From the IMG/VR virus record IMGVR_UViG_3300027754_000179, positions 1-43,297 of that record: a DNA stretch of 43,297 nt, one strand, 5' to 3'. The translations under genes were made by a program, and so were the position numbers. Below are positions 1 through 22,800 of the stretch, piece after piece (positions within the stretch are counted from its first letter, which is position 1; each line of letters opens with the position of its first letter). The stretch comes from a virus. The notes beneath the pieces are model-generated. The model was not told the DNA's origin, made no database searches, and saw only the letters and a list, made by a program, of their open reading frames with translations.

Positions 1-300
1 CCAAGCGTTTTCTCGTTCAAAAACAATGTAGTCAGCCTTTCCTTTGATCCAACCAGGATTGCCTCTGACATTGGTTCCTTCGATCCAGGTAATCTCGTCA
101 CTCAGTGACTCGTCATTACGATTAGCCTTCTTCAATGCCTTCACATCAAACTTGAGCCTGTCATTGCTTAAGTCTAGTAGTATGCCTTCAACATCCCAGT
201 GTTCAAACATGTCTTGATCCTGGGTAGCCATCACAAAGTCTTTTAGATATGTTGTGGCAAATTTGTTTTCGGCGATTCGGCCGCGCGTGAAGTCATTCAT
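1..300 (-). CDS. Partial PD-(D/E)XK nuclease-like protein (C-terminus cut by window edge)
   Basis: The reading frame runs off the left edge, so only the first 100 residues are visible. They contain Glu11, Asp36 and a D-V-K triplet (residues 52-54) followed by a conserved-looking stretch WIEGTNVRGNPGWIKGKADY. The spacing Glu - Asp - DxK is that of PD-(D/E)XK nucleases (Holliday-junction resolvase or VRR-type folds), but this is a pattern reading only. ATG at 300 has no clear Shine-Dalgarno site; an in-frame ATG at 324 would add eight residues (MRSHSKRI) and is an equal alternative. An extended -10 promoter lies upstream (365-394), with 11-bp repeats in the leader, so the gene has its own control. 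It could be a nuclease for host DNA degradation or recombination; the catalytic role is not shown. Confidence 0.55.
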   Translation of the reverse strand, partial: MNDFTRGRIAENKFATTYLKDFVMATQDQDMFEHWDVEGILLDLSNDRLKFDVKALKKANRNDESLSDEITWIEGTNVRGNPGWIKGKADYIVFERENAW

Positions 301-314
301 GATGCGTTTACTAT

Positions 315-346
315 GCGATCGCATTGCGTTTGCATTGCCATTGCAT
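315..346. repeat. Two 11-bp GCATTGC repeats next to a GCGATCGC palindrome
   Basis: GCATTGC occurs at 321-327 and 332-338, exactly 11 bp apart, with a degenerate third TTGCAT at 342-346. The palindrome GCGATCGC at 315-322 abuts the first copy. The same 11-bp unit (GCATTGC plus CGTTC or CCATC) recurs in a longer array at 8660-8698 inside the replication gene. The array lies between the promoter at 365-394 and the leftmost gene. It may be a protein-binding iteron or an operator. Confidence 0.5.
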
Positions 347-364
347 CAATCAACTCACGCTGTA

Positions 365-394
365 AGTATAGCACGTTAATCAAGACTATGCCAG
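365..394 (-). promoter_or_regulatory. Sigma70-type promoter with extended -10, leftmost gene
   Basis: On the minus strand CTGGCA (389-394) is followed after 18 bp by TATACT (365-370). TGC stands directly before the -10, giving the extended TGnTATACT form. It overlaps the 3' end of the small gene at 376-573 and would start transcripts near 357. Confidence 0.5.
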
Positions 395-6897: not shown

Positions 6898-7096
6898 ACC
6901 ACTCACCCTTCCTTCCTCGGTTGCCTTTATTCCATTGGTTCATTACATCCTCCGTTAATTTAGAATTTTTATGATTGGCATCCCATCTGCCCATAAACTC
7001 GTATGCCGTGTCTCTATTTGCAATGCGCTTCTTAATAACGTCTCGAACCAAACATTGATAGAGGAATTCCTTGCTGCAATTACCTTTGTCAATCAA
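6890..7096 (-). CDS. Small basic phage protein ending WNxGNRGxxGEWxE
   Basis: 68 residues from a TTG at 7096 whose TTGA overlaps the helicase stop. Cys-containing N-terminus, a central RDTAYEFMGRWD segment and the ending MNQWNKGNRGRKGEWYE. This ending recurs in short phage proteins near replication genes, one of the recent DUF families; I recall no function. Close coupling to the helicase suggests an accessory role (inference). Confidence 0.55.
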   Translation of the reverse strand: MIDKGNCSKEFLYQCLVRDVIKKRIANRDTAYEFMGRWDANHKNSKLTEDVMNQWNKGNRGRKGEWYE

Positions 7097-8040
7097 AATG
7101 CACCTGCGGTGTCAAACGCCATAGGCACTCCATTTTCATCTTCAATAAATTGTTGACTATCTTTGTGATAGTAAAGACCATACCAATCTTCTGTTTCACC
7201 ATTACGTTGCTTTTCACACATAAGGTGTGCATCAGGGGCTTGCACTACAGCTTCGCCTTGTCTAATCTTTCGCTCCTTAGCTTTGTTTCTGTGCATAAGT
7301 AAAACATTGTCCACTTGATCTGCAATAGCGCCAGTCCCTTTAACATCGTTTTTGTTTGGTTTAATTTCCTCACTTGCAAGCTTTCTAATGTGATGTATTA
7401 AATGTATGTGAACATTATGGTCTCGGGCTAATGCCGTCAATTCATCAACAAAAGCTTTCTGGGCGTTGTAATCATCTTCACCTGATACGCACTTCATAAG
7501 CGAATCAATAAATATATGTGTAATACCTAATTCAACAGCACAATACCTAGCAACTGAAATAACCTGCTTAGAATTAGTTGTACCTTGTTGATCGTATAAC
7601 CAAAGCTTGCTAGTAGAAAATGTTTTTAATCTATCGTAAAAGCTTGTGATCAACGCAGCTCTATCTTTAATAAATGGATTTTCTAAATCTTGTCCACTAA
7701 ATTGCCTTGTCATTCGCATGATTGTTCTTTTTGGTTTCATCTCAAAAGACATAATGCAAACCTTTTGATCTTGTTTAATTAAACCTAATGCAATCTGACC
7801 AGTAATCAAACTTTTACCGCTGCCGTTTGTGCCAGCATACAAAGTAACCTCACCTGGTCTAAAATTAAACTCATTAATAGTCTTTGACCATGGCATAGTG
7901 CACTTAGGAACCACAATTGGATTAGTGATGTCTTCCTTAAGCTCATCAATAAAAACACTAACATCTTTTACTTTCATGTTAGCTTCGGTAAGTTTTAGAT
8001 AATGCTCAAAATCTATTTCACTTGGTTGTAATAGTTCCAC
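7093..8040 (-). CDS. Replicative DNA helicase, RecA-fold (DnaB/Twinkle-like)
   Basis: 315 residues from GTG 8040 (AAAGGA seven bases upstream). Walker A GTNGSGKS is at 70-77, Walker B IFIDS at 176-180, and the DnaB H4-like motif VKGTGAIADQVDNVLLM at 233-249. This is the hexameric RecA-like motor domain with a short N-terminal extension of about 55 residues and no primase or full DnaB N-domain, like phage helicases of the Twinkle/T7 gp4 motor class. It unwinds DNA 5'-3' at the fork. It follows the DUF1376 replication protein, a common initiator-helicase pairing. No separate primase gene was found in the window, so host DnaG may be used. Confidence 0.87.
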   Translation of the reverse strand: MELLQPSEIDFEHYLKLTEANMKVKDVSVFIDELKEDITNPIVVPKCTMPWSKTINEFNFRPGEVTLYAGTNGSGKSLITGQIALGLIKQDQKVCIMSFEMKPKRTIMRMTRQFSGQDLENPFIKDRAALITSFYDRLKTFSTSKLWLYDQQGTTNSKQVISVARYCAVELGITHIFIDSLMKCVSGEDDYNAQKAFVDELTALARDHNVHIHLIHHIRKLASEEIKPNKNDVKGTGAIADQVDNVLLMHRNKAKERKIRQGEAVVQAPDAHLMCEKQRNGETEDWYGLYYHKDSQQFIEDENGVPMAFDTAGAF

Positions 8041-8383
8041 TTAATAATCCTTTGTTATCTAAAATTTGTACTTCGTCATCTTCCATCTGAAACATTAACA
8101 ACACTCTTTCAGGTAAACACTTAGTAATCTTTTCGTAAACATTTAACAGCCTATTTGAATTATCGCCTCGGATAAAAATAGTTAGGCCATAAGCAAACCT
8201 AAAATCAATAGACTCAATGTTGTCTTTAGTTTCAATAAGAATTGCGGGGTAGTCCATTGTGTCAGAGTACTTGTGCCATTCCTTTTCATAATGCGGATCA
8301 TCGTCATCACCAACCCATATATCAATTGCCTCTGGCTTGTGGCCATCTTTTCTAATCTCAAATAACTTATCTATACCAATCAT
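8018..8383 (-). CDS. Hypothetical protein between replication initiator and helicase
   Basis: 121 residues from ATG 8383, which overlaps the upstream stop (ATGA) and has AAGGAG eleven bases before it; the TTG at 8392 is too close to that site. The N-terminus reads MIGIDKLFEIRKDGHKPEAI, followed by an acidic run GDDDDP and a mixed alpha/beta body. I do not recognise it. Its position raises the possibility of a helicase-loader-like role, but no AAA motif (Walker A) is present. The C-terminus overlaps the helicase start by 23 bases. Confidence 0.5.
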   Translation of the reverse strand: MIGIDKLFEIRKDGHKPEAIDIWVGDDDDPHYEKEWHKYSDTMDYPAILIETKDNIESIDFRFAYGLTIFIRGDNSNRLLNVYEKITKCLPERVLLMFQMEDDEVQILDNKGLLSGTITTK

Positions 8384-9021
8384 TTTTTCCAATACTCCTT
8401 AGGTTTTTGCGGCTCAAGCTTAATAAGCCATTCGGCTTTAAATCCAATCCAATTATTCTCAACGCATATAGTCAAGGCATCATTTAAAGTCTTGTTGGCC
8501 TTTTTAGCCTCGCGCTCAATTGCTTTTAGGGCTATGTCCGTTATAGGAAGTCTTTTGGCTTTGCGAAGCTTAAGGTAGTCTTTCCATACAGACACATCTA
8601 CACCTTCAGGTGTATGTGTATTAGTTATTGAGTTATTGAGTTCTTTAGTTATTGAGTTAGCATTGCCATCGCATTGCGTTCGCATTGCGTTCGCATTCTT
8701 TTCTTTTTCCCACTTTACTTTAGCCGACTGACTAGCCTTGTAAGACTTCTCTTGATACTTTTCAATCTCAACATCGCAGCGCTTATGGATAAAGCCAGCA
8801 TCGGTCTTAGTGAAAAAGTCATCCAGTATATTTCTGATAGCTTGTTTTTCAATCTCATCCTTAACTCCTAAAAATCTAAAAAGTTTCTCGTCCTCTAAAG
8901 GCAAAGGCTCTTCAAGCAAGTAATACCTTGACAATGCTTTTATGTAAGCACCGTGCTCGGTCAAACTTAAATGATCCGTGTCTTTTTTGTAGTCACCAAT
9001 GTTGAACCTGAACCAATGCAT
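8380..9021 (-). CDS. DUF1376 replication protein (O-like initiator candidate)
   Basis: 213 residues. The N-terminal 90 match the DUF1376 pattern: MHWFRFNIGDYKKDT, LSLTEHGAYIKALSRYYL, then LFRFLGV. Phage proteins of this type carry a winged-helix-like N-domain and sit beside helicases or helicase loaders. A low-complexity linker (about 108-140, rich in Asn, Thr and Ser) is encoded by direct repeats (8625-8698) that may be the origin, as in lambda gene O. The C-terminal part (about 145-213) has YLKLRKAKRLPITDIALKAI and WIGFKAEWL, common to such proteins and likely to contact the helicase. ATG 9021 has AGGAGA upstream. It is the second gene of the leftward early operon. Confidence 0.75.
   Translation of the reverse strand: MHWFRFNIGDYKKDTDHLSLTEHGAYIKALSRYYLLEEPLPLEDEKLFRFLGVKDEIEKQAIRNILDDFFTKTDAGFIHKRCDVEIEKYQEKSYKASQSAKVKWEKEKNANAMRTQCDGNANSITKELNNSITNTHTPEGVDVSVWKDYLKLRKAKRLPITDIALKAIEREAKKANKTLNDALTICVENNWIGFKAEWLIKLEPQKPKEYWKK
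8625..8698. repeat. Direct repeats inside the replication gene, candidate origin iterons
   Basis: TTATTGAGTT occurs at 8625-8634, 8633-8642 and 8649-8658. It is followed by an 11-bp tandem array with GCATTGC at 8660, 8671 and 8682 and a degenerate GCATTC at 8693. Eleven bases is about one helical turn, so a protein could bind one face. The AT-rich first block beside the GC-richer second block resembles the iteron plus AT-rich arrangement of phage origins placed in the initiator gene. Confidence 0.55.
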
Positions 9022-9023
9022 GT

Positions 9024-9230
9024 TTACTTTCTCCTAAAAATATCAGGTCGTAGCATCTCTGCCTTTACCTTATTTTTGGTGTACTCTTCAATCCTTAAAC
9101 ATAATTGTGGACTAGGCTTTTTACTTCCATTCAAAATTAATGATAACCAAGTCTGCGTAATACCAAGGCTTTCACACATTTCTTTCTTTGCACCTATATG
9201 TAAATTATAAAAAAAATCATTCAGTGTCAT
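9024..9230 (-). CDS. Cro/YdaS-like helix-turn-helix repressor
   Basis: 68 residues from ATG 9230 (MTLNDFFYNL), chosen for AGGAGC seven bases upstream over an in-frame start at 9290. Residues about 13-50 form a helix-turn-helix: GAKKEMCESLGITQTWLSLI, then LNGSKKPSPQLCLRIEEYT, the layout of P22 Cro and YdaS-type regulators (K/A-L-G-x-T-x-x-x-x-S-x-x-L-x-G). It is the first gene leftward from the divergent region and probably binds the dyad at 9267-9284, repressing both promoters. No partner CI-like repressor or integrase is in the window, so lysogeny is not supported. Confidence 0.78.
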   Translation of the reverse strand: MTLNDFFYNLHIGAKKEMCESLGITQTWLSLILNGSKKPSPQLCLRIEEYTKNKVKAEMLRPDIFRRK

Positions 9231-9258
9231 GATTGCTCCTTTTCTGTAACACAAGTGC

Positions 9259-9311: not shown

Positions 9312-9343
9312 GCTTTCACTTAAATAACTTTTAAGGATTACGA

Positions 9344-10424: not shown

Positions 10425-11093
10425 ATGGAAAATATTGCAGAAAACGCAAACGATCCATTACCATTTAAGTTAGCAACTACAAAATTTTGCTCTAAATGCA
10501 AAAATGAAACAGCACATAGCGAGTTTTATAAAAACGCTTTTACTAGAGATGGTTTGGATAGTTATTGTAAACCATGCAAAGCCACATACTATCAAGAACG
10601 AAAAGAGGGTAAGAAATTGCTCTCTTTTAAACAAGTGGCTCCACATAAAAAGTTTTGGCTTGCAGAAAATAAACTTAAAAAAATAGCTCATCAAAAAGTT
10701 GGATATGCTATTCAAAAAGGTGAATTAATTAGGCGGCCATGCGAACGTTGTGGTACTACAGAAAATGTTGTAGCACATCATGAAGATTATAATAAGCCTT
10801 TAGAAGTTGTATGGCTATGTAAACATCATCATATGGAAAGGCATGCTGAATTGGATAGAGAAGACAAACCGAAACCTGACATGATCAATCACCCGCCTCA
10901 CTACACCCAGGGTGGTATTGAGATGCTTGACTACATTAAGGCTAAATTCCCGCCCGAGCAATACATAGGATTTTTGCGCGGCAATATTGAAAAATATAAT
11001 ACGCGTATTGGTCTTAAAGATGATTCAGTCCAGGAAGCTGCAAAGATAGAATTTTACGCTAAAGAACTACATCGATTTTTAAGAGAGGGATAG
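10425..11093 (+). CDS. Fusion of Cys4 zinc finger, HNH-like module and DUF3310
   Basis: 222 residues in three parts. Residues about 24-60 hold CSKC...FYKNAFTRDGL...CKPC, a four-cysteine finger. Residues about 101-143 hold CERCG...VVAHHEDYNKP...WLCKHHHMERH, an HNH-type zinc nuclease core. Residues 153-222 are a complete DUF3310 domain (MINHPPHYTQGGIEMLDYIK), related to the T7 gp1.7 nucleotide-kinase-like family. DUF3310 usually stands alone, so a homing-type HNH module seems to have joined its 5' end. An internal ATG at 10881 could make DUF3310 alone but has no clear ribosome-binding site. The same finger type opens the HNH gene at 35163-35651. Three bases separate it from the SSB-like gene; the start itself has a weak site. 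Confidence 0.75.
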   Translation: MENIAENANDPLPFKLATTKFCSKCKNETAHSEFYKNAFTRDGLDSYCKPCKATYYQERKEGKKLLSFKQVAPHKKFWLAENKLKKIAHQKVGYAIQKGELIRRPCERCGTTENVVAHHEDYNKPLEVVWLCKHHHMERHAELDREDKPKPDMINHPPHYTQGGIEMLDYIKAKFPPEQYIGFLRGNIEKYNTRIGLKDDSVQEAAKIEFYAKELHRFLREG

Positions 11094-17260: not shown

Positions 17261-19872
17261 TATTTTGCTCCTTTAAGATAGGCCAAAGGCGACTTTGACT
17301 TTGGCGGTATTTTGTGTAACGGTGCACTTCGTTTATGCGCCCTAATATTTTCTCTAAATCCATCTAGCATTTTAGCGCCAGCTTTGTTTGATCCATTGCC
17401 TAATTGTGCCACAGTTTCAGCATCAATCACATATTCTCCGTCAGCTAACATAGCTGGAATATCATCGGACTGACCATCGCCTGGGCCTTCTACATAGCTT
17501 CCGTTTCTGTAGTCAGTACGGCCTTCTACCATAGGTAAATTAGGATGAAATTTATCTGACATTGGTACATTTAAATTTGTTTGCATTGGTGATCCGCCAT
17601 TAGCCATCTTAGCTAAACCGCCTTTTTTAGATGCTAATATATCGGATGGACTTACTGGCGTACCGTAAGAATAGTAACCATTATCTACTGGAGCTTTTGG
17701 TAATGGTGTTGGTGGCTCTAAAGCATCCAATCCAAAATTAGGTGGATTTGGATTAACTGGCATAGCTCCGTTAGGTGCAACAGCGGTACCACTATCTTGA
17801 CCTACCATTTGACCTAATCCAGCGTCGTAAACTAAATCACCATTAGCATTATAAATATTGCCATTAGCGTCTTGGAAAAATTGTGGTTCACCTGTTTGTG
17901 GTGGAGCTATAGGTGTTCCGCCTGAAGGAGGTGCTACGATTGATTGATCAGGTTGTTGTGTATTTGGAGCTAGTCCGCCAGTTGGTGTTGTTGGTGGAGG
18001 AGGTGTCATTCTATTTGGTGACACGCCTAAGTTTTTATAAAGCTCTGAGTAATTGCCTTGATCCGTTGGTGTGCCATATTCTGAGTAAGGCGTATATTTA
18101 GCAGGGCCCATTCCAAAGTTTGTTGTGCGTGGTTGTAATGCACCTAACGCGGCCATGTCAATGCCTTTATTTACTGGCTGTGATGATGAGTTCATTAGCT
18201 GTGTAAGTAAGCCACCTAATAATGCGCCTGATACACCTTTGTTGCTTAGTAAGCCACTAATTGCATCTAAAATTCCACCGCTAGTATTTGATGAGCCTGA
18301 TGTTAGATTTGATGCAGTTGCTAACGGAGCAGTATTTGTTGTTGATAAATCTACGCCAGGCGTACTTTGAAGATTATTATAGTTAATAGGTACTGATGTG
18401 CCGCCATCTGATGTTGTTGAGCCAGTACTTCCTACACCAAGAATGTTATTTGTATCTACGGCTAGAGGATCTAATTGTGTTGTAAATTGAGATACGTCAA
18501 GGCCTCCAGTTGTGCCGTCAGCAAAACGTGGCACTGATCCACCATTTGCAAATAATGGCGTTGCTAATCCGCCTTGTTTTTTGTGCGTCACGTGACCACC
18601 TTTTTTAATAATTGTAGTGCTTCCAGGGGTATAGTTTCCATAATCAAAATAGTCTGGACTGCTATAATCATAACCTGGAGGACCCCATGGATCATAAGTT
18701 GAATTATCTGGGTAATAATCAAGACCATAGTAATCAGCGTATGGATTAAATGAATCATCTACTGGATCAAAGTTTGAATCATAAAAGTTTCCAGTGTCTG
18801 GTTCGTAGTAGTAATCATTTTGGAATGCCAAAACTAAATCACCGTTGTAATCATAAATGTTACCGTTAGTGTCAGCATAGTATTGTTGATCGTTTGGTTT
18901 GTTAGGATCGTAACCACCACCGCCATCATTAGATCCAGAAATAGCATTACTTGGATTAATATAAATTAAAGAACCAGATGCATCATAAACATTTCCATCT
19001 CGGTCTTCGTAATAATTATTAGCTAGTTGTGTTGTGCCATCTGGGATGCCAGTGTCAGGATTAACAGGTAATGTATCAGGAGGTGTAGTTCCTGAGGTTG
19101 ATCCACCGCCACCAGTGTTTGTTCCTGTGCCTGTACCAGTCCCTGCGCCAGTACCAGTGCCAGTTCCCGTTCCTGTACCACCACCATAATTAGGGCCTAT
19201 GTTTAAGTTTGGTGTTGCAATAACTTTTCCAGTGCCAGGATCTACGCCTGAAATCACATAATTAGATTGACCATTTGTTTGGCCATATTGAGCATCAATT
19301 TGTGTTTGGGTTGTGCCTGGAGGTAATTGAATACTATCTGTGCTACCAATATTGCCTGTAGGCGTTCCTCCGCCAGGGTTTGGGTTAGGGTTTGGATTTG
19401 GGTTAGGGTTTGGGTTTGGATTAGGGTTTGGATTAGGTTTTGGCGTTAATCCAGATGTTGAAGTGCTAGATCCTTTGTTTAAAGCCATGCCTAATAAGCC
19501 ACCTAACAATGCACCAGCTGCTGGTGATGTTTGTGTTCTTTCTTCTACAACTCTAGGGTTTTGTTTTGCGGCTGATCCAGGTGATGTAATTGACGTTGCT
19601 GGGGCATTAGATAAATTTGGTCTTCCAGCAAGATTTAATCCAGCTTGATTTACAGAATAATCAGGCGCAGGAGGGGCGTTAGATGCTAATGGGGAAGGTG
19701 TGCCAGTTGCATACATAACAGGAGGTTCTGTTGTTGTTCTTTCCTCAGGCAATGGATTGTCACCACGAACCATAAACACATCCTCAATAGGCACATCCTC
19801 AATTGGAGGTAAATCATATGCAGATAGGTCTACAATATCTTCTGGTTTATCAACGGTTTCTGGAAGTGCCAT
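17260..19872 (-). CDS. Pro/Gly/Asn-rich virion protein with DDIPAMLADGEYVIDA domain
   Basis: 870 residues. N-terminal linker with an NP dipeptide tract (about 144-167, TPKPNPNPNPNP...) and GT repeats. The middle has DxDGNxYDxxGxL repeats (YYEDRDGNVYDASGSLIYIN and four like it, plus FQDANGNIYNANGDLVYDAG) and KKGG/ANGGS motifs. Near the C-terminus (about 800-850) lies GPGDGQSDDIPAMLADGEYV, IDAETVAQLG, KAGAKMLDGF, a short domain common to phage virion proteins (tape-measure or internal proteins). The DGNxYD repeats look like calcium-binding or aggregation-prone modules; their role is unknown. The NP tract DNA is telomere-like and G-quadruplex capable. Virion function is inferred from position. 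Confidence 0.55.
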   Translation of the reverse strand: MALPETVDKPEDIVDLSAYDLPPIEDVPIEDVFMVRGDNPLPEERTTTEPPVMYATGTPSPLASNAPPAPDYSVNQAGLNLAGRPNLSNAPATSITSPGSAAKQNPRVVEERTQTSPAAGALLGGLLGMALNKGSSTSTSGLTPKPNPNPNPNPNPNPNPNPNPNPGGGTPTGNIGSTDSIQLPPGTTQTQIDAQYGQTNGQSNYVISGVDPGTGKVIATPNLNIGPNYGGGTGTGTGTGTGAGTGTGTGTNTGGGGSTSGTTPPDTLPVNPDTGIPDGTTQLANNYYEDRDGNVYDASGSLIYINPSNAISGSNDGGGGYDPNKPNDQQYYADTNGNIYDYNGDLVLAFQNDYYYEPDTGNFYDSNFDPVDDSFNPYADYYGLDYYPDNSTYDPWGPPGYDYSSPDYFDYGNYTPGSTTIIKKGGHVTHKKQGGLATPLFANGGSVPRFADGTTGGLDVSQFTTQLDPLAVDTNNILGVGSTGSTTSDGGTSVPINYNNLQSTPGVDLSTTNTAPLATASNLTSGSSNTSGGILDAISGLLSNKGVSGALLGGLLTQLMNSSSQPVNKGIDMAALGALQPRTTNFGMGPAKYTPYSEYGTPTDQGNYSELYKNLGVSPNRMTPPPPTTPTGGLAPNTQQPDQSIVAPPSGGTPIAPPQTGEPQFFQDANGNIYNANGDLVYDAGLGQMVGQDSGTAVAPNGAMPVNPNPPNFGLDALEPPTPLPKAPVDNGYYSYGTPVSPSDILASKKGGLAKMANGGSPMQTNLNVPMSDKFHPNLPMVEGRTDYRNGSYVEGPGDGQSDDIPAMLADGEYVIDAETVAQLGNGSNKAGAKMLDGFRENIRAHKRSAPLHKIPPKSKSPLAYLKGAK
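19374..19440 (+). repeat. Telomere-like G-rich repeat, G-quadruplex candidate
   Basis: On the plus strand GGG runs occur at 19376, 19382, 19388, 19400, 19406, 19412 and 19424, mostly six bases apart, as GGGTTT/GGGTTA/GGATTT units. On the minus strand it encodes the NP dipeptide tract. Seven G3 runs with short T/A loops fit the G-quadruplex pattern. Confidence 0.7.
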
Positions 19873-19880
19873 AAATTATC

Positions 19881-22800
19881 CTAAGTAATAAGTCCCAAAG
19901 CTTTTAATCGATTAGTATCAGTAACGGGCGTTAAAGTACTTACATCAACTTTAGATGGGGGTGTTGAAGGTAGACCTCCACCAGGAGATTGTACACCTCC
20001 TGTTGAAGTTTGTCCAAGGCCTCCTATGCCAGATACGGGAGTTAAAGTGCTTATATCGACATGTGAAGGTGGTCTTACGTATGTAGGTCTTGTAGGTCCT
20101 GTTGGTGTTCCACCATTAATAACGCTATTAAGCGTGTAGTTAATTACGCCATTAATGATTTGTCTTGTAAAGACGCGACCAAGGGTATCTACAAATTGAC
20201 CTAATGAATTTTGTGTTATACCTCCCACTGGCGTACTTGGTGGTGTCACTGGTGGTGTGACAGGCGGCGTAACCACTGGTGGCGTAACTACAGGAGGTGT
20301 CACAGGTGGTTCAACTATTGGTGGTGTAACCACTGGCGGCGTTACCACTGGTGGGGTTACAGGCTCAGTAGGAGGTGTGACCACTGGAGGCGTTACAGGA
20401 GGAGTAACGACTGGTGGTGTCACAACTGGCGGTTCAACAACAGGAGGAGTCACTGGAGGTGTTATCGGTGGCTCTACTGGCGGAGTAACAGGCGGCGTAA
20501 CAACTGGAGGAGTCACTACTGGTGGCTCTACTACAGGAGGAGTTACGGGCGGTGTTACAGGAGGTACCACAGGCGGTGTCACTGGAGGTGTAACAACTGG
20601 TGGAGTAACAGGTGGCACCACTGGTGGATTTTGAATAATGTTGCCAATAGTATCTGTTACGCCTGGTGTAGTAGGTGTTGTCGTACCTGTATCCGTTGGA
20701 GGTGTAACTGGCGGAGTGACAGGTGGAGTAACAGGTGGAGTAACAGGTGGTGTGACTGGCGGCGTTACAGGTGGCGCTGGCGGATTAGCTATGTAATTAT
20801 TTACAAAGTTTGTTTTGTAATCATTTGCAGCTTTTTGTGCTTGATTTAATATTACAGAATTAGCTTGTATATTTTTAAACCCTTCTGTGCGTAACATTGT
20901 TTGAGCCTGTTCTACTCTTGCTTGTAAGTCTTTATATCCTTGATCTTTGTATAACGCAGCATTAGCCATTTGTGTTTGAGTAAGAGTAGGTGGTGTTGTA
21001 GGCGTCGTAGGCGTCGTAGGCGTGGTCGGCGTTGTAGGTGTTGTAGGTGTTGTAGGTGTTGTAGGTGTTGTAGGTGTAGTTGTTGTACCTGGCACCGCAA
21101 CATGAGCAATATTAGTTCCATATTCAGCATTGTATTTATCAATTTTTGTATTGTAATTATTTATTGTTGTTGCGCTATTTAATAAAGCTCCCGTTGGTGG
21201 CGGTGGTGGAGGTAAATAGGAAAGTGTAGGAATCTTTGTTCCGTAATTATTATTGAAATTTGTTACAGCCTTATTATAATTGTTAGCATCTATAGAGTTT
21301 CCTATAACACCTTTCTCAGGTATGGCCGTAGGCACAGAAGAAATGTTTGTTCCGTTTTCAGCATTATATTTTGCTATGTTGTTATTTAATTCTATTGCTT
21401 TGGTTGCATCAAAGTTTCGGTCTAATCCTATTGGAATATTTATTCCTTGTATTTCATGCGTGCCATATTTTGCATTAAGTCTGTCTATAGCATTATTGTA
21501 AGTTTCAATAGATTTTAAATCGCCAGTTGGTGGTGGTGGAAGTTGTATAGGTGTAATTGTTCCAGCTTTAGGATTAATTGTATAATATTTTCCAGACGCG
21601 CCTTGCATCGCTTGATTGGAATTGATACTAATTCCAAGTTTAGGATTTCCTTGCGGTTGATTTGGGTCTGTACTAACTTGTTTTTTTGCAATATCTAATA
21701 ATGCAGCATCAGTTGGTTTTTTAACAAGTTGATCAAGAACATATTGTTCTTTATTATTAATTTGTAAATTTTTTGGAGTGTCGCCATCTAATACTGATTT
21801 AAGCGCTAGGTTAACCGCACTACCAGCTAAGCCGTATTTTGAACGCAACTGAGTGGTATTTGTTGAAAGGTTTTCAATGTTTTTTTGGATTGTTGCTGCT
21901 TTTGCAAAATCTCCAGAATCAATTGCTGCCTTCTGTTGTGCATAAAGATTATTTGGATCATTATTAACAATAGATAACTTTTGTTTGTTTATATTCAACG
22001 CTTCTTTTAAATACTCTTTTTCTTTATCTGTCAAATCAACTAATGTTGCACTTGCACTAAGTCCTGATGCAACTTTTCCAGAATCTAATATTTTTTGAGT
22101 ATCTACAATTGAATTAATAATTTGTGTTTTATTTTTTAGTTCTGGAGAAATAACAACTTGTTTGTCTTTAGGCAATACAGTATTTGTTTTAGTTAAATCT
22201 GTTTGAATCTTTTCTTGTTCTTTTTGTAATTCAACAGCTTTAGCAATGTCACCACTTTGAATTGCTTTTGATTGTGCGTCTGAGTTGTTTGAGTATGCGT
22301 ATAGGTCATATGCAGCTTGTATAGAGCCAGATACTGTGTCGTATTGGCCTTGCAAATTATTTAAATTATCAAATATACCTAATATTTCTTTGTTACCTAA
22401 TAAGTCACCATTAGTCATATTTGAATCAATGGTGGTTGTAATTGGAGCGCCTTCTCTTATGGTTCCATCTGGTAAAACTTCAATTGGTTTTAAAGTAAAT
22501 TGATATTTACCACCGCCTACATCAGTAACTGTTGTGCCAACTTGCGAACTAAGATCTGCTACATTAATTTTTTCACCTGTAAAGGTATTCATATTGCCAG
22601 TGGCTGTTTGATAGACACTGTTTAATTCAGTTAATTTTGTTGCTGCTGCATTTAATGCTGGAATAATATTATCATTTAAATTTGCCGCAATTGGATTTGC
22701 AGTATCTGCATCGCCTGCATCTTTAGCTGCATTGTATGCTGTAATTTGAGCATCGTATCTAGCTTTTAAACTTGCATAATTGCTATCTGTATATTCTTTA

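Follow-up and report, generated by a model that had tools for sequence, protein, structure and literature searches.

A candidate two-part replication origin in the linker-coding middle of a putative DUF1376 initiator gene

The DNA analysed here is IMG/VR virus record IMGVR_UViG_3300027754_000179, positions 1 to 43,297 (43,297 nucleotides in all, hereafter the window), which carries on its minus strand a putative replication initiator gene encoding a DUF1376 N-domain, a linker and an O-like C-domain. Judging from the sequence, positions 8623-8697 are very probably a two-part replication origin located in the linker-coding middle of its own initiator gene. One part is an array of 11-bp iterons (GCAATGC in the sense of the gene, GCATTGC on the other strand) and the other is an adjoining AT-rich array of 8-bp repeats. 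A preliminary description of this DNA had proposed a candidate origin within the putative initiator gene, and this is still the best reading of the evidence. The DUF1376 domain, a putative winged helix, would bind the iterons; the iteron-bound array would then strain the adjacent AT-rich repeats, which would open; and the O-like C-domain would bring the DnaB-like helicase encoded at 7093-8040 to the opened strand, whereupon theta replication would begin. Iteron binding, melting, helicase loading and origin activity are all steps that we infer from the letters of the DNA.

Results

Direct repeats between the two domains of the initiator

The repeats first noted in the preliminary description are real and lie inside the DUF1376 gene, in the segment encoding the linker. 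Exact copies of TTATTGAGTT are present at 8625, 8633 and 8649 (spacings 8 and 16), and GCATTGC recurs exactly at 8660, 8671 and 8682 (pitch 11), before an incomplete fourth copy (GCATTC) at 8693. Tandem Repeats Finder reports a period of 8 for 8619-8659 (score 61) and a period of 11 for 8651-8697 (score 66), and the AT-rich tract (8623-8659, approximately 24% GC) adjoins the iterons directly. These direct repeats sit mid-gene, between the regions encoding the N- and C-domains, with the 11-bp GCAATGC array specifying residues 109-121 and the 8-bp AACTCAAT array specifying residues 121-133. GCAATGC is not its own reverse complement and its copies are direct, so the inverted-repeat iterons of lambdoid origins are not seen here.

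Several controls show that this arrangement is unusual. Chains of three GCATTGC words (at most one mismatch, pitch 11) are seen in 0/100 first-order Markov shuffles of the window, and chains of two in 29/100. When the protein is held fixed, the observed pitch-11 score of 22 and the observed pitch-8 score of 19 are each reached by 0/3000 synonymous recodings. Moreover, when the recoding test is applied to 49 genes of the window, the initiator gene is the sole gene that passes with a non-codon-pitch repeat. Neither word is over-represented in the window as scattered single sites (14 GCATTGC matches with at most two mismatches compared to 10.6 expected, and 10 TTATTGAGTT matches with at most one mismatch compared to 7.5 expected); the repeat signal is the tandem arrangement. 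Because 11 is not a multiple of three, each of the three reading frames is used for the one DNA word, which the peptide NANAMRTQC shows as NA, AM and QC. This reading in three frames, together with the failure of any of 3000 synonymous recodings to match the arrays, indicates that repetition is kept at the level of DNA and not at that of protein.

Distribution of the iteron word

A scan for three GCATTGC words at pitch 11 (21 fixed bases), in which no protein information was used, finds this pattern in at least 119 stretches of viral contigs. The counts of coding and non-coding arrays that follow are among the matches listed. At 102 of 120 loci, including the window, the array lies inside an open reading frame (ORF) of at least 100 amino acids, in the GCAATGC sense in 95 cases; where two ORFs hold the array, the one in the GCAATGC sense was taken. 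Pfam identifies DUF1376 in 49/102 of these ORFs and Lin1244_N in 35/102, the overlap between the two not being separated, while 69/102 match phrog_9327 ('primosomal protein') and 18/102 match phrog_678. Non-coding arrays of the same word are present at 18 loci, where the nearby genes are mixed (DUF1376 in 4/87 ORFs and ParB_N in 2/87).

The same word is also found at 12-bp pitch in 80 stretches (L121-L200), with DUF1376 in 33/76 ORFs and many matches to 'primosomal' and 'replication initiation' PHROGs. These arrays translate as in-frame SNA peptide repeats and represent a second spacing of the same iteron. The proposal in the preliminary description that an 11-bp pitch aligns the sites on one face of the DNA is thereby loosened: the pitch is exactly 11, but phase is not strict, because the same protein families commonly carry this word in 12-bp arrays too.

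The reversed word (CGTTACG in three copies, pitch 11), tried as a null, occurs in 10 stretches of viral contigs and was rejected for this purpose because 3/5 of the ORFs that hold it match Phage_rep_org_N. As an observation in its own right, the CGTTACG pitch-11 arrays in Phage_rep_org_N proteins (L201-L210, 3/5 ORFs) represent a third initiator family, one that has an iteron word of its own.

Iterons are followed by a short-period array

The order of the two parts was counted in 117 of the 120 arrays, three having a flank shorter than 140 bases. These reduce to 84 non-redundant loci (72 coding and 12 non-coding), each having at least three exact copies of GCAATGC. An array of period 4-8 is present on the C-terminal side of the iterons in 59/72 coding loci and upstream in 1/72, with shuffles giving 24/1680. 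In addition, the DNA downstream of the iterons is more AT-rich than that upstream in 49/72 coding loci, with the reverse being true in 19. The short-period units themselves differ, many gammaproteobacterial phages having AACCAAT or AACCATA (7 bp) and the window having AACTCAAT (8 bp). Clostridial Lin1244_N genes (L307-L333, surveyed without L329, which has a stop inside) carry 5-bp AAAGT-type arrays in the linker, giving KESKVKESKVK peptides. At the 12 non-coding loci, a short-period array is downstream in 5/12 compared to upstream in 3/12, so that a fixed order is not established there, and several of these loci show the pattern by eye. The preliminary description had called the TTATTGAGTT copies iteron-like. 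Given their position, they are probably the short-period AT-rich second part of the origin instead, the GCATTGC array being the one that fits iterons.

Genes chosen by protein and not by their repeats

We also assembled genes without reference to the repeats and scored a gene as passing if it contains a non-codon-pitch repeat reproduced by no more than 2/200 synonymous recodings. The phage DUF1376 set was drawn from 16 named phages and 3 contigs on the basis of protein similarity, and the sets from bacterial genomes were selected by Pfam; L384, L385 and L386, which are below the family cut-off, were left out. Of the 19 phage DUF1376 genes, 17 pass, and all of their arrays start in codons 106-143. 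Lin1244_N ORFs in bacterial genomes pass in 18/26 cases, 17 of these in the linker (codons 95-200), with the eighteenth (L322) being a low-complexity artefact. Neighbouring control ORFs pass in 3/99 cases. When 14 whole named phage records are scanned with a fixed score at pitches 7, 8, 10, 11, 13, 14, 20 and 22, strong arrays appear in 12/14, once or twice each, and all hits fall in the DUF1376 linker with one exception, in zth2-2.

That exception (L368, 16579-16612, W01) consists of 10-bp AAGTTTTTTT repeats located approximately 2 kb upstream of the initiator linker. Separately, the DUF1376 linker of Vibrio phage 1.183.O (L290, MG592549.1, 1861-1890) is annotated as 'CRISPR spacer 1', origin-like repeats having been mistaken for a CRISPR array.

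Association of the iteron word with the N-domain

Five phage proteins have a C-domain in common with the window protein (38-52% identity), combined, by eye, with other N-domains; their linkers carry other repeats. The KLEP17-4 linker contains AACAGCAGGTG at pitch 11, the ctEw122 and DC33 linkers contain GATATCA at pitch 11 followed by GACAGA (DC33 failing the recoding threshold at 5/200), the 587AP2 linker contains CTCGGA and TCCGAG halves at pitch 22, and that of Cy-LDV1 contains a 5-bp array with ATGCAACG words. Since proteins sharing the C-domain differ in their repeats, and few of the GCAATGC/DUF1376 proteins have the C-domain of the window, these comparisons indicate that the iteron word goes with the N-domain. 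The preliminary description had regarded repeats that vary freely between relatives as evidence against an origin. Read to the letter, this is what is found, in that the cores do differ; nevertheless, the place and order of the arrays are kept, and in one relative the core of a second array has changed in the same way (see below). We also note that L388 (PQ492659.1), a record of 39 kb encoding an O-like replication protein, is filed under Inoviridae, which looks like a taxonomy slip.

Second, non-coding arrays

The window contains a second pair of exact GCATTGC words at 321 and 332, outside the listed ORFs and between the ORF starting at 300 (minus strand) and the ORF ending at 376. Together, the two arrays contain 5/7 of the GCATTGC words on the plus strand of the window. 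The initiator would bind this second array too, which would serve either as an SPP1-like second origin or as an operator.

A clearer case is provided by L274, in which the initiator is 43% identical, the locus is collinear with the window, and the iteron core is GTAATAC instead of GCAATGC. The changed core recurs in a second array at 10755-10812, which lies outside the listed ORFs (between 10704 and 10868); a paired change of this sort is difficult to account for if the two arrays are not read by one protein. The reverse complement of the non-coding module copy (10690-10820), which is 9.9 kb away, aligns with the coding linker over approximately 80 bases that include both the iterons and the AACCATA repeats. 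The alignment score is 98, compared to no more than 47 in 300 shuffles; the next best placements within the locus score 37-38, and the two copies share a 15-mer. Similarly, G489 has one array in an initiator-like ORF, for which there is no Pfam match, and one non-coding array at a distance of 7.9 kb; a T-rich short repeat adjoins each of them.

A general occurrence of second arrays was considered and rejected. A search for GCATTGC-N4-GCATTGC in 41 records (the window and 40 chosen from L002-L081, mostly long contigs) finds arrays beyond 1 kb from the main array in the window and G489 only. Repeating the search on the 40 records with one mismatch allowed adds one single site, in G489, and no second array is seen in the 14 named phages at the threshold used.

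The initiator protein and neighbouring features

Residues 107-202 of the protein match PHROG 678 ('replication initiation O-like'), and the best PHROG of the complete 213-residue protein is 'primosomal protein'. The AlphaFold2 model (mean predicted local distance difference test score of 85.6) has a confident N-domain, low-confidence residues 120-131 and a helical C-domain. Structural matches to the DUF1376 domain include ORC2 winged helices (Z 5.0-6.0), the initiator entries 4pql, 5kbj and 4pt7 (Z 5.1-5.4) and DnaD (Z 4.8). The three initiator entries, entitled 'Structure of initiator' or 'Structure of Rep-DNA complex', are ones that we take to be RepA_N proteins. As to whether DUF1376 has a RepA_N fold, they tie with ORC2, and all of these scores are weak enough for chance to account for them. 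A sequence search of the PDB gives one match only (E 0.83), and an alignment query on DUF1376 found no conserved stretch.

The window has an initiator-like product with a neighbouring helicase gene, and in many annotated relatives helicase, DnaC-like or P-like genes come after the initiator. Just upstream of the initiator gene, at 9024-9233, is a small helix-turn-helix protein that matches Pfam YdaS_toxin and a phage repressor PHROG. Further tandem arrays of the window, at 19375-19443 (12/18-bp TTTGGGTTAGGG-like) and 20266-20774 (12-, 15- and 93-bp units), lie in large late genes and all have codon pitch.

Table 1. Coordinates in the window of the putative initiator gene, its repeats and associated features.
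Feature	Position	Strand	Basis
Putative initiator gene, 213 amino acids (P0001): DUF1376 N-domain, linker, O-like C-domain	8380..9021	-	ORF, Pfam, PHROG, AlphaFold2
DUF1376 domain, residues 2-87, putative winged-helix iteron reader	8761..9018	-	Pfam PF07120, E 6.6e-24, 84.5 bits against a cut-off of 30.1
C-terminal domain, residues 138-206, common to O-like proteins with other N-domains	8404..8610	-	PHROG, sequence comparison
Iteron array, GCAATGC in gene sense, pitch 11, 3 exact copies and 1 partial copy	8660..8697	-	Sequence, Tandem Repeats Finder, recoding test
8-bp AACTCAAT-type repeats (TTATTGAGTT on the other strand), putative unwinding tract	8623..8659	-	~24% GC; position matches that of the 5-7 bp arrays in relatives
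DnaB-like replicative helicase gene, downstream of the initiator	7093..8040	-	Pfam DnaB_C, E 3.4e-20; PHROGs
Second non-coding array, exact GCATTGC at 321 and 332 (pitch 11) with degenerate copies	303..346	-	Identical in near-identical contig L273
Promoter-like site CTGGCA-18-TATACT, immediately upstream of the second array	365..394	-	Consensus scan only; 3 found against 1.3 expected in 700 bases
Gene P0002, starting right after the second array and truncated at the window edge	1..300	-	No Pfam or PHROG match

Discussion

Several observations weigh against an origin in the linker-coding region. The cumulative GC-skew minimum, at 9328, is at a divergent gene boundary; given that it coincides with this switch of gene strand, we do not use skew as support. 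Third-position skew between the two arms is only weakly different (p = 0.04), and there is no difference at four-fold sites. The structural matches to the DUF1376 domain do not exceed Z 6.0, and a Foldseek search gives no match at E ≤ 0.001. In addition, AT-rich repeats are missing beside the second array of the window (303-346). DUF1376 ORFs from bacterial genomes, which represent prophages, pass the recoding test in only 7/26 cases, implying either that the feature is not universal in DUF1376 or that these copies have decayed or are not phage initiators. Finally, the scan of chromosomes (84,980 species' genomes) finds the pitch-11 word in 62 stretches, 50 of them in an ORF; DUF1376 accounts for 8, Lin1244_N for 8 and DnaB_2 for 3, with the rest being mixed genes. 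The array is therefore also present in unrelated genes as a chromosomal background, and the word alone is not diagnostic there.

We next weigh readings in which these repeats are not an origin. They might constitute a self-operator, bound by the initiator or by the upstream helix-turn-helix protein in order to regulate transcription, with replication starting elsewhere. Iteron-binding proteins often autoregulate, and the array at 303-346, with a promoter-like site on one side and a start codon on the other, is placed where an operator would be. With no AT-rich repeats beside it, that array may as well have a regulatory role as be a second origin. The main array, however, is approximately 325 bases inside the gene and far from any start, and an operator alone leaves unexplained both the fixed polarity of the AT-rich array and the duplication of the complete two-part module in L274. 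For these reasons we regard a self-operator as improbable.

There is very little to be said, given the recoding results, for the idea that the linker is merely a low-complexity tether, expanded by slippage, in which the DNA sequence is irrelevant. The linker is predicted to be disordered, linkers tolerate repeats, and the 12-bp arrays do give in-frame SNA repeats. Nevertheless, synonymous recodings fail to reproduce the arrays, the same word forms arrays at the 18 non-coding loci, and L274 has a non-coding copy; moreover, pitches of 11, 7 and 5 are not multiples of three, and are thus not the product of protein selection or in-frame expansion. This explanation is already largely refuted. A partition (centromere-like) or recombination site is likewise hard to credit, even though the weak structural matches include centromere-binding winged helices (AspA, 5k5q, Z 4.0) and ParB_N is found near non-coding arrays. 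PHROG classes the array-holding proteins as replication initiators, helicase or loader genes come after them, and no partition gene is found beside the window array (ten ORFs scanned with Pfam and PHROG).

An origin inside the initiator gene is of a kind that is already known from lambda, SPP1 and pSK41, and Weigel and Seitz, in 'Bacteriophage replication modules' (2006), are said to have predicted origins within initiator genes. What is new, as far as we have seen, is that an origin is attributed to DUF1376 and Lin1244_N, that one iteron word is so widely shared, and that the order of the two parts is measured over many phages; a literature search that did not extend to subscription papers found no paper linking DUF1376 or Lin1244 to a replication origin. 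A broader proposal, which we advance tentatively and think may well prove too sweeping, is that DUF1376 and Lin1244_N proteins form a large, mostly unrecognised class of phage initiators with an origin in the linker. The grammar of these origins would be common across bacterial phyla: the N-domain would read an 11- or 12-bp word (very often GCAATGC), and to the C-terminal side of it there would always be a tandem array of 5-8 bp units. That array would be more than an AT-rich tract, acting as a repeated single-strand element with a role like that of the DnaA-trios of oriC. The N-domain and its iterons would be swapped as one cassette, and some phages would have a second non-coding module.

Were this class to exist, DNA alone would suffice to call the origins and initiators of uncultured phages, and an origin could be placed by its sequence in many uncultured phages and prophages. 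A function would be provided for DUF1376, which Pfam lists as being of unknown function, and for Lin1244_N, and the odd NANAMRTQC-like, SNA and NHKPITNN linkers would be origin DNA read through as protein. Moreover, an initiator domain and an origin that reside in one gene, and that can move as a cassette, would be a clean system for studying joint inheritance.

SPP1 has two origins, oriL in gene 38 and oriR, and L274 and G489 show a similar two-array anatomy, the likeness being one of array layout; the window also has a second array but without the AT-rich repeat tract. In the RepA_N plasmid pSK41, the winged-helix N-terminal domain of Rep binds Rep boxes in the middle of rep, the origin-encoded middle of the protein is a dispensable linker, and the C-terminal domain is separate (PMC5703833). 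The DUF1376 domain has a weak structural likeness to initiator entries (Z 5.1-5.4), although the PDB sequence search gives no match beyond the one at E 0.83. The window replicon is a phage with its own helicase. The C-terminal domain of pSK41 Rep binds DnaG primase.

For lambda and the Shiga toxin (Stx) phages P27 and 933W, the published account describes an origin in the middle of gene O, with direct iterons bound by the initiator, an AT-rich tract, and a helicase-recruiting gene downstream (PMC7466680). Lambdoid iterons are inverted repeats (PMC7466680), in contrast to the short direct repeats at 11-bp pitch in the window. The N-domain also differs, being DUF1376 in the window, and the AT-rich tract of the window is itself a tandem array. 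In both lambda and the window, iterons lie beside an AT-rich tract in the middle of the initiator gene, and the C-domain of the window protein matches PHROG 678. The likeness to lambda drawn in the preliminary description is thus borne out in the iterons of the linker, the AT-rich tract on their C-terminal side, the DnaB-like helicase gene downstream and the O-like C-domain.
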